Positions 44,009 to 61,643 of a stretch of 64,000 nt of DNA are shown here, piece by piece. The notes under the pieces were generated by a model. That model did no database searches, was not told the origin of the DNA, and was given only the letters and a program-made list of their open reading frames with translations. The translations under genes and the position numbers were made by a program. The DNA is taken from positions 1,116,001 through 1,180,000 of the forward strand of contig NZ_FNRQ01000001.1 in NCBI RefSeq assembly GCF_900107685.1, read 5' to 3'. This DNA comes from Paraburkholderia sartisoli (GTDB lineage: Bacteria > Pseudomonadota > Gammaproteobacteria > Burkholderiales > Burkholderiaceae). Numbering within the stretch: the first letter of the stretch is position 1; every line of letters starts with the position of its first letter.

Positions 44009-44586
44009 GCAAGCTTGAGGTGGGTCAGTCGTTGTTCGAGCGCCGCCCTGAGTTCATCGAGCGAGCGCGCCACCGTCGTGTACTCGATGCGCGCGAGCCG
44101 CTCGACGTTCTCCAGTTCGATCGCCCGCGGCCGCACTTCGACCCATTCGTGCGGGGTCTGCGTGATGACACTCGGTGCCGTATCGCATGCGAAAACAATG
44201 CCAGGTACACATTGCTTGCCGGCCTGCGCGAAGAGATTGGTCGGCAACGTGTCCGAGATGCCGAACGCGCACTTGGCGACGGTGTTGCTGGTCGCGGGCG
44301 CGATGATGACGGTGTGATATTCGCCGTTGTAGATCATGCCGACGGGCACGCTGCTCGCGCTGTTGTCGCGCACCACGCGAAAATGCTCGCGCAGTTTCGC
44401 GATCGTCCAGCCGTAGAGCGGCAAGACCTCTTCGCCCGCGGCCGACAGGAACAGGTCGACGCCCGGCAGCTGGCGCGCGAGGTCGATCGATTCCTCGAGC
44501 ATGTGACCCGAGCCGGTCACGCACCACGCGAACCGCGCGTCGGGCTTGAACTCGTCGAGCCGGCGAGCGGGCGTGGGTGCGTTCAT
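43987..44586 (-). CDS. dmrB: dihydromethanopterin reductase, DmrB flavoprotein
   Basis: A 199-residue FMN-binding flavoprotein with ARFAWCVTGSGHMLEESIDL, YHTVIIAPATSNTVAKCAFG and TPHEWVEVRPR. The archaeal-type DmrB family, characterised in a Burkholderia species among others, reduces dihydromethanopterin to H4MPT. Its ATG overlaps the stop of the sigma-54 regulator in ATGA, so its translation is coupled to that regulator, and it overlaps the next gene by 22 bases. Confidence 0.85.
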   Translation of the reverse strand: MNAPTPARRLDEFKPDARFAWCVTGSGHMLEESIDLARQLPGVDLFLSAAGEEVLPLYGWTIAKLREHFRVVRDNSASSVPVGMIYNGEYHTVIIAPATSNTVAKCAFGISDTLPTNLFAQAGKQCVPGIVFACDTAPSVITQTPHEWVEVRPRAIELENVERLARIEYTTVARSLDELRAALEQRLTHLKLAWTTSSS

Positions 44587-46694
44587 GCGTCGGAAGGCGA
44601 AGACCCGTCGTGGGAGAGCCGGATCTGCAGCCGGTGCATCTTCCGGTACAGCGTGTTGCGGCTGATGCCGAGCCCCTTCGCGACGTTGCTGACGTTCCAG
44701 CGATGTTCGTCGAGCAGCGCCAGCACCGTCTCACGCTCTTTCAGCTGGATTGCGTTGAGCGTCGAAGTGTCGGCGTCGTCGGCCGCGCGTGGGGGCGTGG
44801 CGGCGCCGGGCAGGCCCGTGGACCGCGCAAGGCCCGGCGCGTCGTACGCGCTCGCGGCGCTTGCCGCACCGGCGGCGGCAGCGCCGGAAGCGCCGCGGCA
44901 GATATCCGCGGGGAGATGCGAGCAGCGGATTTCGTCGCCGTCGCAGAGCGCCATCGCCATCTGCAGCACGTGACGCAACTGGCGGATGTTGCCGGGCCAC
45001 GCATAACCGAGCAGCGCGCGCTGGGCTTCCGTGCTGAGCGTGGGCGGATCGTCCGTTTCGCTTTCGAGGATGTGATGGATCAACGCGAGCGCATCGGCAC
45101 GGTCGCGTAGCGCGGGGAGATTGATTTCGATGCCGTTCAGCCGGTAATACAGGTCTTCGCGGAACTGGCCGTTCTGCACGAGCTCCATCAGGTTGCGGTG
45201 GCTCGCGCTGATCAGCTGGAAATCCACCTTGACGGTGACTTCCGCGCCGAGCGGCGTGACTTCCTGCTCTTCGAGCACGCGCAGCAGGCGCGCCTGGAGC
45301 GCCATCGGCATGTCGCCGATTTCGTCGAGAAAGAGCGTCCCGCTGTTCGCCTGCACGATCTTGCCGCGCCGTCCTTCGCGCTGCGCGCCCGTGAACGCGC
45401 CCGCACGATAGCCGAACAGTTCGCTTTCGATCAGGTTCTCCGGCAGCGAGGCGCAGTTCACCGCGACAAACGCGCCCGCGCTGTTCGGGCTGATGCTGTG
45501 CAGCGCGTTCGCAAACACTTCCTTGCCGGTGCCGGTCTGCCCGCGCAGGATGATCGGAATCTTGCGCTGGATCACGCGCGCCGCGAGCTGGATCTGCGAA
45601 GCCATGCCGGGGTCGCCGAATTCCAGATGCGAGAGCTTGTCGAGCCGGTTGGCCTGCCCGCGCGCTTCCCGGCTATCGCGCGGCCTGACGCTCCGGCTGC
45701 GTGCGGCGGACGGGTATTCGCGCGCGGCCGGATCGGTCATCAGGATGCGCGTCGCGGTGTCGGTGGCGTCGCGCGGCGTCTGCGCGATCAGGAAAAAGCG
45801 GTTGTTGGCGTTCGCGCTGTACACGGTCACCGGATGGAACGAGCCCCGGATGCTGCGCGCGAGCATGTCTTCGAGCGACGAGTTGAACGCCTCCTCGATG
45901 CGCTTGCCGACCAGTTCCGCGTGCGAGCGGTAATCGAGCTGGAAGAGGGCGCTGCGGCTCGCGGCCAGCACGACGCCTTCGTCGCTGACGGCGAGCTTGC
46001 CCGCATGCAGCGTACCGACGAACTCGGGGCGGCTATGAAAGTGGATCATGTGCGCGCGGCGGTAACGCGCGTCGATCAGGCGGTTTTCGATCATCTGCCG
46101 CGACATGCCGACGAGCACCAGCGAATGCTGCTGCAACAGCTTCGAGCGGCTCGTCACGTCGAGCACGCCGGCAACCGCGCCGCGATCGTCGAAGATCGGC
46201 GCGGCCGAGCAGGTCAGCGACGTGTAACGCGGATAGAAGTGCTCGTGCTGGTACACCGCGATACATTCGCGTTCGGCAAGACAGGTGCCCATGCCGTTTG
46301 TGCCCGCTTCGCGCTCGCTCCAAAGCGCGCCGACACGCAGGCCGTCGGCGGCCACGGCTTCGCCGAACGGCACCGACGACACCTGATGCACGATCACGCC
46401 TTCCGCGTCCACCAGCACGACGGCCAGTTCGGGATCGGCGAGCTGCTGGTACAGCGTGGTCATCTCGAGCTTCGAACAGGCGATCAGGTCGCTCGCGGCT
46501 TCGCGCCGCGCGGCCAGCTCCTGCTGCGTGAGAATGGGCGGCATCACGAAATGCGCGGGATCGAGCCTGAATTCGTTCAGGCAGCGCGTCCATGACTGCG
46601 CCACCGAGGCACTGGTGGGCCGTGTCGCCACCTGGTTGTGGACGGTACTGAGTACTTCCCGGACATGCGTGTTGATGTCTGCAAGCGACGACAT
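44583..46694 (-). CDS. sigma-54-dependent activator (AcoR-like, GAF-PAS-AAA-Fis)
   Basis: A 703-residue enhancer-binding protein. Residues about 60-210 form a GAF-like sensor (REAGTNGMGTCLAERECIAV); a PAS-like region covers about 240-330. The AAA+ domain has Walker A RGQTGTGKEVFANAL, the sigma-54 contact loop GAFTGA and LFLDEIGDMP. A Fis-type helix-turn-helix closes it (WNVSNVAKGLGISRNTLYRK). It starts at 46694 (GGAGA upstream) and is coupled to dmrB by ATGA. It is the only sigma-54 activator in the window and lies among six candidate -24/-12 promoters. The inducer may be an alcohol, aldehyde or C1 intermediate. Confidence 0.92.
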   Translation of the reverse strand: MSSLADINTHVREVLSTVHNQVATRPTSASVAQSWTRCLNEFRLDPAHFVMPPILTQQELAARREAASDLIACSKLEMTTLYQQLADPELAVVLVDAEGVIVHQVSSVPFGEAVAADGLRVGALWSEREAGTNGMGTCLAERECIAVYQHEHFYPRYTSLTCSAAPIFDDRGAVAGVLDVTSRSKLLQQHSLVLVGMSRQMIENRLIDARYRRAHMIHFHSRPEFVGTLHAGKLAVSDEGVVLAASRSALFQLDYRSHAELVGKRIEEAFNSSLEDMLARSIRGSFHPVTVYSANANNRFFLIAQTPRDATDTATRILMTDPAAREYPSAARSRSVRPRDSREARGQANRLDKLSHLEFGDPGMASQIQLAARVIQRKIPIILRGQTGTGKEVFANALHSISPNSAGAFVAVNCASLPENLIESELFGYRAGAFTGAQREGRRGKIVQANSGTLFLDEIGDMPMALQARLLRVLEEQEVTPLGAEVTVKVDFQLISASHRNLMELVQNGQFREDLYYRLNGIEINLPALRDRADALALIHHILESETDDPPTLSTEAQRALLGYAWPGNIRQLRHVLQMAMALCDGDEIRCSHLPADICRGASGAAAAGAASAASAYDAPGLARSTGLPGAATPPRAADDADTSTLNAIQLKERETVLALLDEHRWNVSNVAKGLGISRNTLYRKMHRLQIRLSHDGSSPSDA

Positions 46695-55535: not shown

Positions 55536-55922
55536 TCAGGCCTTCGGCGCGTCGTACTTGATGTAGCGAAAGCGCTGGTCGTCCGCGGGCGTGCCTTCGA
55601 GCGGACCGCCTTCGCGGCCGGGTTGCCACTGGATCACTTCCTCGATTTTCGTGGCCAGCGCGAAGTCCTTGTCGGTGATGCCTTTCGCCGAATGCGTCTT
55701 CAGCTTCACGATGACAAACGCATACGAAACGGTCAGGTCCGGGTGATGCCACGCCGCTTCGGCCAGGTGGCCCACGGTGTTCACCACCATCAGCGTGCCT
55801 TTCCAGCTTTCCGTCTTGAACTTGCGGCGCAGCCAGCCCTCATCGAGGTACCAGTGCTGCAACGGACCCTGCAGGCGTTGCTGGATCTCCTCGTCGGAAT
55901 ACACGTGTTCAGCCTGGGTCAT
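55536..55922 (-). CDS. pterin-4a-carbinolamine dehydratase-like protein
   Basis: A 128-residue PCD/DCoH-like protein: EIQQRLQGPLQHWYLDEG, ESWKGTLMVVNTVGHLAEAA, HHPDLTVSYAFVIVKLKTH. The HHP...H motif of PCD is present. Such proteins recycle hydroxylated pterins, or help H4MPT metabolism where they occur beside mptG. The start at 55922 is chosen for its GGAGA and because a -24/-12 element lies just upstream; the frame itself is open to 55970. Confidence 0.85.
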   Translation of the reverse strand: MTQAEHVYSDEEIQQRLQGPLQHWYLDEGWLRRKFKTESWKGTLMVVNTVGHLAEAAWHHPDLTVSYAFVIVKLKTHSAKGITDKDFALATKIEEVIQWQPGREGGPLEGTPADDQRFRYIKYDAPKA

Positions 55923-55966
55923 GATGTGGGTCTCCGTCGTGTCTGCACGTTGAATCTCAAAGCGCT

Positions 55967-55981
55967 GCAAGCAGCGCGCCA
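55967..55981 (-). promoter_or_regulatory. sigma-54 promoter candidate of the pterin dehydratase gene
   Basis: Minus strand TGGCGCG-CTGC-TTGC, one change from consensus in the -24 (G for A), 45 bases before the ATG at 55922. It shares the 507-base intergenic region with the divergent xoxF; the TGTGTC array about 200 bp upstream could activate both. Confidence 0.5.
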
Positions 55982-56173
55982 GTCATGTGGCCGCGGGCGT
56001 CGCCGGCAGCCACGTTTTCCCCGACTCCGGCCGACGCGTGAAACGCGCCGCTGCGCGGGCCTCGCGTGAGGCTGCACAAGGGGCGAGGCGTGTGAAGGCG
56101 TCCTGTCATGTTGCGCCGCCGCATGACAGCGTGTGCTTGCGGGCGAGCGGCACGCGTGACAAATCGCGTATTT

Positions 56174-56234
56174 GACACAGTATGTGTCGCAATCCGAATG
56201 ATCGTGTGTCGCAAGCGGCGGGCGGCTGTGTCAC
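56174..56234 (+). promoter_or_regulatory. TGTGTC array upstream of xoxF
   Basis: GACACA (56174) with spacer GTA faces TGTGTCGC (56183). Two more direct copies follow, TGTGTCGC (56205) and TGTGTCAC (56227), each exactly 22 bp apart, i.e. about two helical turns. The first pair forms the GACACA-GTA-TGTGTC palindrome whose core recurs upstream of mfnD. The whole set lies 43-103 bp before the sigma-54 -24 element, in keeping with an upstream activator site. Confidence 0.7.
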
Positions 56235-56275
56235 TGCGCGGCGAAACGCAGGTGTGAGGCGCGTAAACCAGGTTC

Positions 56276-56291
56276 CGGCACGGAATGTGCA
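56276..56291 (+). promoter_or_regulatory. sigma-54 promoter of xoxF
   Basis: CGGCACG-GAAT-GTGC-A has the required GG-N10-GC spacing (GG at 56277, GC at 56289) and two changes from consensus. The xoxF ATG is 139 bases further on. No good -35/-10 pair was noticed in the region. Confidence 0.6.
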
Positions 56292-56429
56292 AACGGTCTG
56301 CGGAAGCAAGAACCTGGCGATGAATCAGGCGAAGCACGGTCGTTACCCGTATCCGAGCGAGGCGCACTCGGTGCGACACGGTAGCGCGGTCATTGACGAA
56401 TCGGACGGTTTCAACAATCTGGAGGAGAC

Positions 56430-58250
56430 ATGAACGTACGCACCCTGGTTCTCGGACTGGCGGTGGTAGCGGCGACGGCCCTGAATTCATTCGTTGCACA
56501 GGCTGATTCGCAGCTCGACACGCTGATCAAGAACCCCTCGAACTGGGCGGCACAGGCGGGCGATTACTCGAATCACCGCTACAGCCCACTCAAGCAGATC
56601 AACGAAAGCAATGTGAGCAAGCTGCAGGTTGCCTGGACGATGTCCACCGGCGTCCTGCGCGGCCATGAAGGCTCACCGCTCGTCATCGGCGACACGATGT
56701 ATATCCACTCTCCGTTTCCGAACAACGTTATCGCGATCAACCTGAAGGACCAGACGTTCATCTGGCAATACGAGCCGAAGCAGGACACGCAGGTGATTTC
56801 GGTGATGTGCTGCGACACGGTCAATCGCGGTCTCGCGTATGGCGACGGCAAGATCTTTCTCCAGCAGGCCGACACGAAACTCGTCGCGCTGAACGCGAAG
56901 ACGGGCGACGTGGTCTGGACCGCGCAGAACGGCGATCCGAAAGCGGGTGAAACGAACACCAACGCGCCGCACGTATTCGGCGACAAGGTGATCACCGGCA
57001 TCTCGGGTGGCGAGTTCGGCGTGCGCGGCCGTCTGATCGCGTACGACATCAAGACCGGCAAGGAAGCCTGGAAAGCCTACAGCACCGGCCCCGACGCCGA
57101 CATGCTGATGGACCCCGACAAGACGATGACGTGGTCGGACGGCAAGATGGTGCCGGTCGGCGCGGATTCGTCGCTGAAGAGCTGGAAGGGCGACCAGTGG
57201 AAGCTGGGCGGCGGCACCACGTGGGGCTGGTACGCATGGGATCCCAAGCTTAACCTTGTCTACTACGGCACCGGCAATCCGGGTACATGGAACCCGACGC
57301 AACGTCCCGGTGACAACAAGTGGTCGATGTCGATCTTCGCGCGCGACCTGAACACCGGCATGGCGAAGTGGGTCTACCAGATGACCCCGCACGACGAATG
57401 GGACTATGACGGCGTCAACGAAATGATCCTCGTCGACCTGCCGATCGGCGGCAAGACGACACCGGCGATCGTCCACTTCGACCGTAACGGCTTTGGTTAC
57501 ACATTGAATCGCGTGACCGGGCAGCTGCTGGTTGCCAACAAGTTCGACCCGGCGGTGAACTGGGCCGATAGCGTCGACCTGAAGTCGGGCCTGCCGGTGC
57601 GCAACGCCGCTTACTCGACGCAAAAAGCCGGTCCGGATCACAACGTCAAGGGCATCTGCCCGGCCGCGCTCGGTTCGAAAGACCAGCAGCCGGCGGCCTT
57701 CGACCCCGGGTCGAAGCTGTTCCTCGTGCCGACCAACCACGTCTGCATGGATTACGAGCCGTTCGACGTCGACTATGTTTCGGGCCAGCCGTTCGTGGGC
57801 GCGACGCTGTCGATGTATCCGGGTCCGAAGGAAAACGGCGCGATGGGCAATTTCATCGCGTGGGACGCGGCGAAGGGCAAGATCGTCTGGTCGAAGCCGG
57901 AACGGTTCTCGGTGTGGTCGGGCGCGCTCGCGACGGCTGGCGGCATCGCGTTCTACGGCACGCTTGAAGGCTATATCAAGGCCGTGCGCATCAAGGATGG
58001 CAAGGAACTGTGGAAGTTCAAGACGCCGTCCGGGATCATCGGCAACGTGTTTACGTACGAATACCAGGGCAAGCAGTTCGTCGGCGTCTATTCGGGCATC
58101 GGCGGCTGGGCAGGTATCGGCATGGCCGCGGGCCTCCAGAAGTCGACGGAAGGTCTCGGCGCGGTCGGTGGCTATCGTGAACTGGCGAAGTACACGGCAC
58201 TCGGCGGCACGCTCTTCGTGTTCGCCATTCCTGGCAGCACGGGTGGCTGA
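56430..58250 (+). CDS. xoxF: lanthanide-dependent PQQ methanol dehydrogenase XoxF
   Basis: A 606-residue periplasmic quinoprotein with a signal peptide ([20 protein letters not shown], cleavage near AQAD). The adjacent cysteines of the disulfide ring lie at 127-128 (VMCCDTVN). The active site WDYDGVNEM has aspartate at 325 and the extra aspartate at 327 that marks lanthanide-using enzymes; calcium MxaF has alanine there. W-motif blades such as [12 protein letters not shown] recur. It matches the XoxF5 clade in length. CTGGAGGAGACATG gives a strong start. xoxG and xoxJ follow. No mxaF is present. Confidence 0.97.
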
Positions 58251-58424: not shown

Positions 58425-58838
58425 ATGAAAGGCCGATTTTTCCTGCCGCTCGCGATGATCCTCGTCGTGACGCCCGCATCCTTTGCCCAGACCAGCGGCG
58501 GGGAGATGAAACCGGTAACCTACAAGGTCGTCGACGGCAGCAAGGTCGACGCCAATACCTTGCAGGGATGGAGGACGTGGCGCGCGCTCGCGTGCGAACG
58601 GTGTCACGGCGCGAAGCAGGAAGGCCTCGTCGGCCCCTCGCTGATCGACGCATTCAAGACGCTCGACAAGACCGAATTCCATCGCACCGTATTTGGCGGG
58701 CGCGTGGACAAAGGCATGCCGGATTTCAGCACCAGCACGATGATGCAGAAGAACTGGGAAAACCTGTATGCGTATCTGAAAGGCCGCTCCGACGGCAAGA
58801 TCAACCCTGGCGATCTGCAGGCCATCGATGCCAAATGA
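58425..58838 (+). CDS. xoxG: cytochrome c XoxG, electron acceptor of XoxF
   Basis: A 137-residue periplasmic c-type cytochrome with signal peptide (MKGRFFLPLAMILVVTPASF) and a single haem site CERCH at residues 57-61. The axial methionine is probably in KGMPDFST. Position after xoxF and size fit XoxG. ATGGAGACGAACGC precedes the ATG. A weak -24/-12-like string (CGGCACGACAGTGGC) lies in the 174-base gap upstream. Confidence 0.93.
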   Translation: MKGRFFLPLAMILVVTPASFAQTSGGEMKPVTYKVVDGSKVDANTLQGWRTWRALACERCHGAKQEGLVGPSLIDAFKTLDKTEFHRTVFGGRVDKGMPDFSTSTMMQKNWENLYAYLKGRSDGKINPGDLQAIDAK

Positions 58839-58939: not shown

Positions 58940-59830
58940 ATGTCTGATCGCAAGCTGGGCCCGCTCGCGCTTGTGCGCGTCGCCACGTTGTGCTGTGCAG
59001 GGCTGGCGGCGCACGCCGCGTACGCCGATCCGCCGTTGCCGAACAACGACGGCAACGACGGCGTGCTGCGCGTCTGCGCGGACCCCAACAACATGCCGCT
59101 GTCGAACAGCAAGGGTGAAGGCTACGAAAACCAGATCGCCGCGCAGATGGCGAGCGATTTCGGCTACAAGCTCGAATACACGTATTTTCCGCAGCGCATG
59201 GGCTTTGTGCGGCACACGCTGCGCGAAAAGGTGCCCAACACGGAGAGCTTCAAGTGCGACCTCGTCATCGGCGTGCCGAAAGGGTACGACATGACGGCGA
59301 CGACGCGTCCGTATCTGCATTCCACGTACGCGATGGTGTTCTCGAATCGCCCGGAACTGTCGGGTATCAACACGCCCGCCGATCTGCTGAAGCTGCCGCC
59401 CGAGACCCTGCGCAAGCTGCGCCTCGGCATTTTCTCGCAGACGCCGGCCGTCGACTGGCTGCTTGGCCACAACCTGCTTGAACAGGCTGTGTCGTATCAG
59501 GCACAAAGTGCTGATCCCGCCGCGTTTCCGGGCGAGATGATCGAACACGACCTGGTTGCGGGCAACGTCGACGTGGTGTTCCTGTGGGGGCCGATCGCGG
59601 GCTACTTCGCGAAGCGCGAGGGCGACAAGGTGAAGCTCGTGCCGTTTCCGCCGACGCCTGGCATCCGTTTCGACTACGAGATCTCGATGGGCACGCGTCA
59701 CGGCGAGAAAACGTGGAATACCAAGGTCGATCAGTGGATCGGTGCGAACCAGAACAAGATCGACCGGATTCTCACGAGCTACCAGGTGCCGATACTGCCG
59801 GTCGCGAGCGCGCCGACCGCTTCGCAATGA
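58940..59830 (+). CDS. xoxJ: periplasmic binding protein XoxJ
   Basis: A 296-residue solute-binding-fold protein with signal peptide (cleavage near AYAD), then LRVCADPNNMPLSNSKGEGY, CDLVIGVPKGYDMTATTRPY and AGNVDVVFLWGPIAGYFAKR. XoxJ/MoxJ proteins help mature or activate methanol dehydrogenase. CCCGGAGGTATCG precedes the ATG. Its stop overlaps the next gene in ATGA. Confidence 0.92.
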   Translation: MSDRKLGPLALVRVATLCCAGLAAHAAYADPPLPNNDGNDGVLRVCADPNNMPLSNSKGEGYENQIAAQMASDFGYKLEYTYFPQRMGFVRHTLREKVPNTESFKCDLVIGVPKGYDMTATTRPYLHSTYAMVFSNRPELSGINTPADLLKLPPETLRKLRLGIFSQTPAVDWLLGHNLLEQAVSYQAQSADPAAFPGEMIEHDLVAGNVDVVFLWGPIAGYFAKREGDKVKLVPFPPTPGIRFDYEISMGTRHGEKTWNTKVDQWIGANQNKIDRILTSYQVPILPVASAPTASQ

Positions 59831-60636
59831 GGTGCCGGACCGGGTATGCGACACGCGGTGCGGGTCGCCGCGCGTTCGGGTTCGGGTTCGCGACAGCCGT
59901 CGCCGCTGTTTTCGCGTTGATGCTGCCAGGCGGCGCGGCGTTCGCCGCGGGTACGACAGCCGGCGGCGACATCACCCCCGCGGAGAAACTGCTCTTCATG
60001 ACGACGCATATGAGCGGCGTCGAAGCGCAGACGGAACTCGACTACGCGTTCAGTCTTTCCGGTCCGCCGGAGAAAATCAGCGACACCGTCCGCGTGCTGG
60101 TGACGAGCGCCGCCAACGCGAAGAGCGATGCGCACATCACGGATCGCAGCGGCGCCGTCGACGTGTCCTCCGAGGGGCTGCCGTGCAATCCCGTGATCCT
60201 CTATTTTCTCGAGCACGATATTGCCGAGATGGAGCGGCTCACCGGTGGCCAGCGCCGTTATTTCCAGCGCCGCGTGCGTCTCGCGCTCGCGGCCGGACCG
60301 CCCGTCACGCCCGTGGTGGTGGACGTGGGCGGCAAGCCCGTGAAGGCGCGCAAGATCGTGATCCAGCCGTTTCTCGACGATCCCAACGCTTCGCGCTTCG
60401 CGCAATACACCGCCAAGCGCTATACGTTCATCATCGCCGACGACACCGTGCCAGGGCGCGTGATGTCGATCCATACGGAGGTGCCGGGCGCGAACAACGA
60501 TTTCGCGCATCCGTTCCAGGCCGACACGCTGAATTTCTCGGGCGCGCTGCGCAGCCTCGCGCCGCCGCCGGCCAGACCCGGCCAGCCGGCGCCGGCGCCG
60601 GTCAAGACACCACAGGCGCCAAGTGCGAGTCGCTGA
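59827..60636 (+). CDS. secreted protein of the xox cluster, unknown
   Basis: A 269-residue protein whose ATG overlaps the xoxJ stop. It has a signal peptide (RAFGFGFATAVAAVFALMLP, cleavage near AFAA) and then ITPAEKLLFMTTHMSGVEAQ, LPCNPVILYFLEHDIAEMER and IIADDTVPGRVMSIHTEVPG. It ends in a Pro/Ala-rich tail. I do not recognise a named family; similar genes occur with xoxFGJ in proteobacteria. Being coupled to xoxJ, it is likely a periplasmic accessory of methanol oxidation. Confidence 0.78.
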   Translation: MRCRTGYATRGAGRRAFGFGFATAVAAVFALMLPGGAAFAAGTTAGGDITPAEKLLFMTTHMSGVEAQTELDYAFSLSGPPEKISDTVRVLVTSAANAKSDAHITDRSGAVDVSSEGLPCNPVILYFLEHDIAEMERLTGGQRRYFQRRVRLALAAGPPVTPVVVDVGGKPVKARKIVIQPFLDDPNASRFAQYTAKRYTFIIADDTVPGRVMSIHTEVPGANNDFAHPFQADTLNFSGALRSLAPPPARPGQPAPAPVKTPQAPSASR

Positions 60637-60638
60637 AC

Positions 60639-61643
60639 GTGAACTTCATCCGCTCACTGACGCTGCGGCAGTTGCAGATTTTCGTGGTGGCGAGCCGCTA
60701 CCCGAGCTTCGCGCGCGCGGCCGAGGAACTGCACCTGACGCAACCCGCGGTGTCGATGCAGATCCGCCAGCTCGAAGACGCGGTGGGCCTGCCGCTCTTC
60801 GAGCGCGTCGCGCGCAAGCTCGCGTTGACGGAGGCGGGTGAGCGTTTCTCGCATCACGCGAGCCGCATCATTGGCGAGATCAAGGACGCGGAAGACGCGA
60901 TGACCTCGCTCACGCAGGCCGACAGCGGCTCGATCGCGGTGAGCATCGTGAGCTCGGCGACCTATTTCGCGCCCAAGCTGCTCGCGCTCTATTCGCAGCA
61001 GTATCCGAAAGTGGACGTGCGATTTTCGGTGGGAAACCGGGAAACGCTGCTGCGCCTGTTGCAGGACAACGCAACCGATCTCGCGATCATGGGCCGCCCG
61101 CCGCCTGAACTCGGCACGACCGCCGAGCCGATGGCGTATCACCCGCACGTGATCGCCGCGCCGCTCTCGCATCCGCTGCGCGACGCGCGGAGTTTCGATC
61201 TGCAGGAACTGGCGGGTGACACGTTCCTGCTGCGCGAGCCGGGTTCGGGCACGCGCGCCGTCGTGGAGCACACGTTTCGTCAGCATCTGTTCCAGCCCGC
61301 GCGTACCGTCACGCTCGGCAGCAACGAGACGATCAAGCAGGCCGTGATGGCGGGAATGGGCGTGAGCCTGATTTCGCTGCACACGCTTGGCCTCGAGCTG
61401 CGCACGGGCGAGATCGCGCTGCTCGACGTGAACGGCACGCCGATCGAGCGGACGTGGCAGCTCGTGCATTCGCGCTCGAAGCAGTTGTCGCCGACGTGCG
61501 TCACGTTCCGCCGGTTCCTGCTCGAGCACGCCGAGCCGTTTCTCGAGAACGAATACGCGCAGTTCGCGTTCCGGCCGCCGAAGCGGGTTGCCGCGCGGAT
61601 CCTCGAAGGCGCGGCGCCCGCCGATCCGGGCCGGACAAAATGA
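60639..61643 (+). CDS. cbbR: LysR-family regulator, CbbR-like
   Basis: A 334-residue LysR regulator with N-terminal HTH (SLTLRQLQIFVVASRYPSFA, AAEELHLTQPAVSMQIRQLE) and an effector domain (LRLLQDNATDLAIMGRPP, LREPGSGTRAVVEHTFRQHL, GMGVSLISLHTLGLELRTGE). These sequences are close to CbbR, the Calvin-cycle regulator. It starts at GTG 60639, just after the previous stop, and its stop overlaps the MBL gene in ATGA. It is some 19 kb from the cbb operon, inside the xox operon. Confidence 0.85.
   Translation: MNFIRSLTLRQLQIFVVASRYPSFARAAEELHLTQPAVSMQIRQLEDAVGLPLFERVARKLALTEAGERFSHHASRIIGEIKDAEDAMTSLTQADSGSIAVSIVSSATYFAPKLLALYSQQYPKVDVRFSVGNRETLLRLLQDNATDLAIMGRPPPELGTTAEPMAYHPHVIAAPLSHPLRDARSFDLQELAGDTFLLREPGSGTRAVVEHTFRQHLFQPARTVTLGSNETIKQAVMAGMGVSLISLHTLGLELRTGEIALLDVNGTPIERTWQLVHSRSKQLSPTCVTFRRFLLEHAEPFLENEYAQFAFRPPKRVAARILEGAAPADPGRTK

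Follow-up and report, generated by a model that had tools for sequence, protein, structure and literature searches.

NorR and similar enhancer-binding proteins (bEBPs) of the Fis type recognise short dyads with a spacer of three bases, use several such sites and assemble into hexamers. The three-site requirement of NorR-like bEBPs is quoted in PMC8899819, which is also the source for BmoR, the bEBP that serves the butane monooxygenase promoter of Thauera butanivorans from a site 193 bp upstream and has butanol as its signal. The known lanthanide switches MxbDM/MxcQE, MxaY/MxaB and PedS2/PedR2 are two-component systems, and the passages on regulation in the papers found likewise assign xoxF and pedH to two-component systems (PMC11845868, PMC5018670, PMC6115532). 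A GAF-modulated sigma-54 regulator gene is labelled in xox/mxa clusters in the legend of Fig. 1 of a review (PMC11845868).

Here we describe the DNA upstream of a xoxF gene of Paraburkholderia sartisoli. Judging from comparison with related loci, we consider it likely that xoxF has a sigma-54 promoter at 56276-56291 that is activated via a palindrome by DNA looping, the activator being most likely the bEBP encoded at 44583-46694. Coordinates in the table are those of the window, i.e., the whole stretch of 64,000 nucleotides that was analysed. The translation of the gene contains WDYD, as expected of an XoxF, which we take to be its Asp-Tyr-Asp metal motif. The first-pass annotation had spoken of xoxF, and for the gene at 56430 this name is backed by the match to TIGR03075, by the closest solved structures (6dam and 6oc5, both Ln-dependent XoxF) and by the cytochrome c and MoxJ-like genes that follow.

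Table. Features of the xoxF region and of the candidate activator gene, with the basis of each assignment.
Feature	Position	Strand	Basis
Candidate activator, 703-aa GAF / sigma-54 AAA+ / Fis-HTH enhancer-binding protein	44583..46694	-	Domains, GAFTGA, linkage, orthology, co-occurrence
Possible divergent sigma-54 element TGGCGCGCTGCTTGCA	55966..55981	-	Score 11; some relatives only
Enhancer palindrome TTTGACACA-GTA-TGTGTCGC (predicted)	56171..56190, core dyad 56174-56188	.	Once per genome; kept in relatives
Second half-site TGTGTCGC	56205..56212	+	22 bp from first; intact only here and in P. gardini
Third half-site TGTGTCAC	56227..56234	+	22 bp past second; intact only here and in P. gardini
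Sigma-54 -24/-12 element CGGCACGGAATGTGCA (predicted)	56276..56291	+	10/12 consensus positions; CGGCATGGAATATGC at same place in relatives
Predicted xoxF leader, conserved	56302..56429	+	Possible stem CGTTACC 56341-56347 / GGTAGCG 56380-56386
xoxF, lanthanide-dependent methanol dehydrogenase	56430..58250	+	TIGR03075 717 bits; best solved relatives 6dam, 6oc5
xoxG-like cytochrome c	58425..58838	+	TIGR03874 match below cut-off
xoxJ-like (MoxJ-like) periplasmic protein	58940..59830	+	TIGR03871 287 bits, above cut-off

We collected 80 xoxF loci and aligned the upstream DNA of 30 loci of the Paraburkholderia/Caballeronia type with the window. Two blocks, TTTGACACAGTATGTGTCGC and CCGGCATGGAATATGCA, are conserved amid upstream DNA that is otherwise unalignable. 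Both the palindrome and a CGGCAYGGAAT(A/G)TGC element are kept, with slight variation, in 47 of 49 Paraburkholderia/Caballeronia-type upstream regions, a set that includes whole-genome additions and in which the window, and maybe some species, are counted twice. The distance from the centre of the dyad to the -24 GG ranges from 73 to 210 bp and the DNA in between is variable and unalignable; such a pattern, fixed at both ends and free between them, is what an enhancer and its promoter would show. Over the short range the distances cluster at 73-74, 84-87, 95-96 and 105-108 bp, about one helical turn apart, with a helical phasing R of 0.79 (p 0.04, for five collapsed distance classes from related species), and no phasing was found at distances beyond 140 bp. 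Since the species are related, the short-range helical phasing of palindrome and promoter is suggestive only.

The first-pass annotation had read GACACA at 56174 and TGTGTC at 56183, 56205 and 56227, with two spacings of 22 bp, and every one of these positions proved correct when the half-sites were read directly (GACACA occupies 56174-56179). The 8-mers of the three TGTGTC copies are, in order, TGTGTCGC, TGTGTCGC and TGTGTCAC, and two copies of the array are identical over their first ten bases (TGTGTCGCAA). On its own the TGTGTCRC 8-mer occurs at chance level (6 in the window vs 7.0 expected). The combination TGTGTCRC-N13..15-TGTGTC is found nowhere in the whole 5.9-Mb genome other than upstream of xoxF, with 0 control matches, and the exact sequence GACACA-N3-TGTGTC has its single genomic copy at the same site. 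Chance was assessed with 5000 dinucleotide shuffles of the intergenic region: some hexamer occurs three times at equal spacing in 0.7% of them, and a 6-N3-6 palindrome with one half recurring twice at equal spacing occurs in none of the 5000. The arrangement of palindrome and half-sites is not due to chance.

Among the aligned relatives, P. gardini (L021) alone shares with the window an intact TGTGTC at both +22 and +44 from the palindrome. P. saeva has a partly decayed array, with TGTATC for the second half-site and TGCGTC for the third, and the remaining relatives lack both. The array was consequently rejected as the conserved core, the relatives keeping only the palindrome. The stress that the annotation had laid on three half-sites at 22 bp is not supported, since palindrome and -24/-12 element persist in relatives whose half-sites have decayed or disappeared. 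The annotation itself had named missing repeats in close relatives as evidence against its proposal; such loss was found, so that the array is not essential, and the sigma-54 reading survives it. On this comparison the palindrome is the predicted conserved core of the operator, and the 22-bp array, with its half-sites on one face of the DNA, is better regarded as an addition in particular lineages than as the basic design.

The exact strings GACACAGTATGTGTC and CCGGCAYGGAATATGC have 8 and 14 matches, respectively, in 120 genomes of the family, with at most one match per genome and no control match. Seven genomes other than that of the window itself have the exact palindrome, and in all seven the promoter string follows it on the same strand at 89-147 bp, just ahead of XoxF. 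Its single copy per genome, with the promoter string and XoxF just downstream, makes the exact palindrome look like a one-target operator. The palindrome was also considered as the mark of a larger regulon, an idea that was rejected because the genome has no second exact copy and sites with at most two mismatches are near the control level (108 vs 82). Upstream of the palindrome, at 56103-56129, there is also a 13-bp inverted repeat (CTGTCATGTTGCG/CGCCGCATGACAG, 85%), and several relatives carry a related CATGCTGC...CATG sequence.

In the predicted promoter element, GG at 56277-8 and GC at 56289-90 are separated by ten bases. The 43 bp that the first-pass annotation had counted from the last copy to this element is the distance from the hexamer, and the distance from the end of the 8-mer is 41 bases. 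Compared with TGGCACG-N4-TTGCW, the element matches at 10 of 12 scored positions and departs at two, and nine sites scoring at least 10 are found in the window, which makes the element weak as a single-sequence signal. What makes it credible is that it is conserved at one place across the relatives. The GG-N10-GC stands in a consensus context with the putative activator site upstream at a flexible distance, as a sigma-54 promoter should, and the genome encodes two sigma-54 proteins (C12:228403 and C15:125581). A second possible element, on the opposite strand, lies about 45 bp ahead of the divergent pterin carbinolamine dehydratase gene, and similar elements occur in some relatives. As a sigma-54 promoter for that gene it is patchy among relatives and was set aside as a lead; the palindrome might be an enhancer serving two divergent promoters, those of xoxF and of the pterin dehydratase gene.

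A different kind of control could be exerted by the LysR-type protein encoded downstream (60636-61643), the gene for which follows xoxFGJ in most Paraburkholderia/Caballeronia loci. Suppose that xoxF is run mainly by this protein, or by some other palindrome binder that does not work with sigma-54, from a sigma-70 promoter that lies, for example, in the leader, the conservation of which would fit. LysR proteins bind a T-N11-A pattern, whereas the dyad has A-N11-T, and a LysR box at the dyad was rejected for this wrong symmetry and because the LysR gene, unlike the bEBP gene, is not similarly linked to xoxF in the other taxa with sigma-54 elements. A simple scan of 55800-56700 gave no sigma-70-like promoter, and control of this kind gives no account of the conserved GG-N10-GC string. 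We regard it as unlikely.

The leader is strongly conserved across Paraburkholderia/Caballeronia, and a further hairpin is possible upstream of the 7-bp stem given in the table. The CGTTACC/GGTAGCG pairing can form in nearly all of 29 leader sequences with few compensatory changes; the covariation is slight and becomes weaker with more divergent sequences. A known riboswitch was rejected, as the Rfam scan of the leader gave no family at the gathering score, covariation is slight and the single sequence folds worse than its shuffles. A structured leader acting as a regulatory RNA is possible.

The proposed activator has the domains of a bEBP, namely PF00158 (214 bits), the Fis-type HTH PF02954 and the GAF domain PF01590, and its GAFTGA motif and nucleotide-binding motifs (GQTGTGKE and FLDEIGD) are intact or present, respectively. 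It scores below the cut-off of every NCBIfam named bEBP family that it matches (NorR, DhaR, PrdR and others) and is therefore filed under no named regulator. Its gene shares a C1 cluster with xoxF, along with genes for a formaldehyde-activating enzyme and for dihydropteroate-synthase-like and formylmethanofuran-dehydrogenase-like proteins. In many of the Paraburkholderia/Caballeronia loci that are long enough, an ortholog is found some 10 kb upstream of xoxF; in Massilia, Noviherbaspirillum, Pollutimonas, Candidimonas, Nevskia, Ramlibacter and one Rhodocyclaceae genome the two genes are at most 10 kb apart. Nearly all xoxF-linked orthologs (the exceptions are L067 and L072) have this protein as their best match among the sixteen strong bEBPs of the genome.

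The bEBP also co-occurs with XoxF: among 120 genomes of the family it is present in 20 of the 20 that have XoxF, 99 have neither (p 7e-22) and one, G004, has the bEBP without XoxF, while at the level of the order it is found in 11/14 XoxF genomes vs 24/286 others (p 3e-9), absences in the latter scan being soft as three candidates were scored per genome and all p-values for co-occurrence and linkage being optimistic as the species are related. In G004 the gene (64% identity; locus L154, G004:C15:123000-142900) stands in an H4MPT-type cluster beside a tetrahydromethanopterin glutamate ligase gene and a dimethylamine-monooxygenase-like gene, a hint that C1 metabolism, and not XoxF itself, is what the bEBP responds to. 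That G004 keeps the bEBP in such a cluster, and that there are sixteen strong bEBPs to choose from, would also suit a sigma-54-dependent xoxF promoter activated by another of the sixteen, with the linked bEBP serving other C1 genes. We think this quite improbable, considering that the linked bEBP and xoxF co-occur perfectly within XoxF genomes and are closely linked, and that the genome contains the exact palindrome once.

The other genera bear on the nature of the GG-N10-GC string. Within 260 bp of the xoxF start, a sigma-54 element scoring at least 10 is found in 14/18 bEBP-linked loci vs 8/31 unlinked ones (p 8e-4). The elements of the linked loci are mostly canonical (TGGCACGATAAGTGCT, TGGCACGCTCTGTGCT, TGGCACGGCTGTTGCT), and four such loci have no clear element. 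In a second sample, of whole genomes, the mean scores are 8.6 for bEBP-linked loci vs 4.4 for those without (p 5e-4), and scores of at least 10 are reached by 2/9 with the bEBP vs 0/22 without it, a small count. It could be argued that the string is another conserved site and no sigma-54 promoter, in view of the small dyad GCAT-N5-ATGC that it holds in most relatives, its departures from the sigma-54 consensus and the elements of similar score elsewhere in the window. The canonical TGGCACG-N4-KTGCW in other genera, however, stands at similar distances upstream of xoxF without the GCAT/ATGC dyad, and presence of the element tracks the gene for the sigma-54 activator, so that we hold this explanation to be very improbable.

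In Massilia and other distant taxa, outside the Paraburkholderia group, the palindrome is unrecognisable. Its presence there was rejected, although L054 has two copies of TGTGTCAC 15 bp apart and L055 the related GTGTCAC/GTGACAC. Because of this, the match between the bEBP and the palindrome rests on co-occurrence, for which co-inheritance within a shared cluster could be partly responsible. Some loci of Variovorax, Rhizobacter and Sphaerotilus have GGGCAYG-N4-TTGC near -120 and no bEBP within reach; in L069, L081, L087, L097 and L100 (Variovorax, Rhizobacter and others) a possible sigma-54 element, GGGCATGGATGTTGCG, lies about 110-130 bp upstream of xoxF, and the DNA examined holds no linked bEBP. 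Such loci of Variovorax, Rhizobacter and Sphaerotilus may use an unlinked activator.

What we observe are the sites themselves, their conservation, their occurrence once per genome and an activator gene that is linked to xoxF and co-occurs with it; from these we infer binding, looping, start site and signal as follows. The GAF-AAA+-Fis bEBP would bind TGACACA-GTA-TGTGTC, some 96 bp ahead of the -24 GG, and from this palindrome contact the sigma-54 polymerase at 56276-56291 through looping. The two extra TGTGTC half-sites of P. sartisoli and P. gardini, each two helical turns further on, would probably strengthen loading or assembly of the activator, and the three half-sites may be bound cooperatively on one face, as the first-pass annotation had suggested. 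Transcription would begin near 56302, some 12 nt past 56290, leaving a leader of about 128 nt, and the signal would be a C1 compound or lanthanide status sensed via the GAF region. The sigma-54 enhancer design of the first-pass annotation finds good support in the relatives and in the linked bEBP gene that co-occurs with xoxF, and falls as far as the 22-bp array was to be its basis; for the binding protein, which the annotation had not named, the product of 44583-46694 is a candidate. More tentatively, the bEBP could be a sensor of methanol, formaldehyde or lanthanide. XoxF would then be under an old one-component sigma-54 switch, present in many Beta- and some Gammaproteobacteria and distinct from the two-component systems described for lanthanide, and the conserved leader RNA might add a second checkpoint; this larger picture is conceivable but doubtful.

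Control of lanthanide-dependent methanol dehydrogenase, in the passages that describe it, is exerted by two-component systems and is known from a small number of model organisms. The way in which many soil- and plant-associated Burkholderiales turn on methanol oxidation would find an explanation in a conserved sigma-54 enhancer and an activator inherited along with it. The activator-promoter pair offers a test of what signals to xoxF outside the models, and of whether a one-component regulator senses lanthanide or a C1 compound; it is also a potential part for methanol or lanthanide biosensors.

The two-component switches MxbDM/MxcQE, MxaY/MxaB and PedS2/PedR2, as their papers present them, control genes of PQQ alcohol dehydrogenases, XoxF or PedH among them; the proposed system shares this type of target and differs in that a single GAF-type sigma-54 activator would take the place of sensor kinase and response regulator. 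The regulator in Fig. 1 of PMC11845868 belongs to the same broad type of bEBP and sits in clusters for methanol dehydrogenase, but there it is a gene label, and the regulation passages of that review name two-component systems, give no operator or target promoter for it and do not call it the regulator of xoxF. With NorR-type bEBPs the region upstream of xoxF shares a short dyad and several sites, and assembly into hexamers would be a further common trait, whereas the recognition sequence and signal differ and the candidate protein is below the NorR family cut-off. BmoR resembles the proposed system as an alcohol-pathway bEBP that serves a sigma-54 promoter from a remote inverted repeat, and differs from it in target and operator (PMC8899819); among worked cases of alcohol-linked bEBPs with a far-upstream inverted repeat, it comes nearest. 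The first-pass annotation had expected a sigma-54 enhancer for xoxF to be new, in line with which our search of the open-access literature (subscription papers being outside its scope) gave no paper in which xoxF is controlled through sigma-54. Mechanisms of this kind are already known, and the target, the operator and the pairing with this activator appear to be new within the searchable literature.
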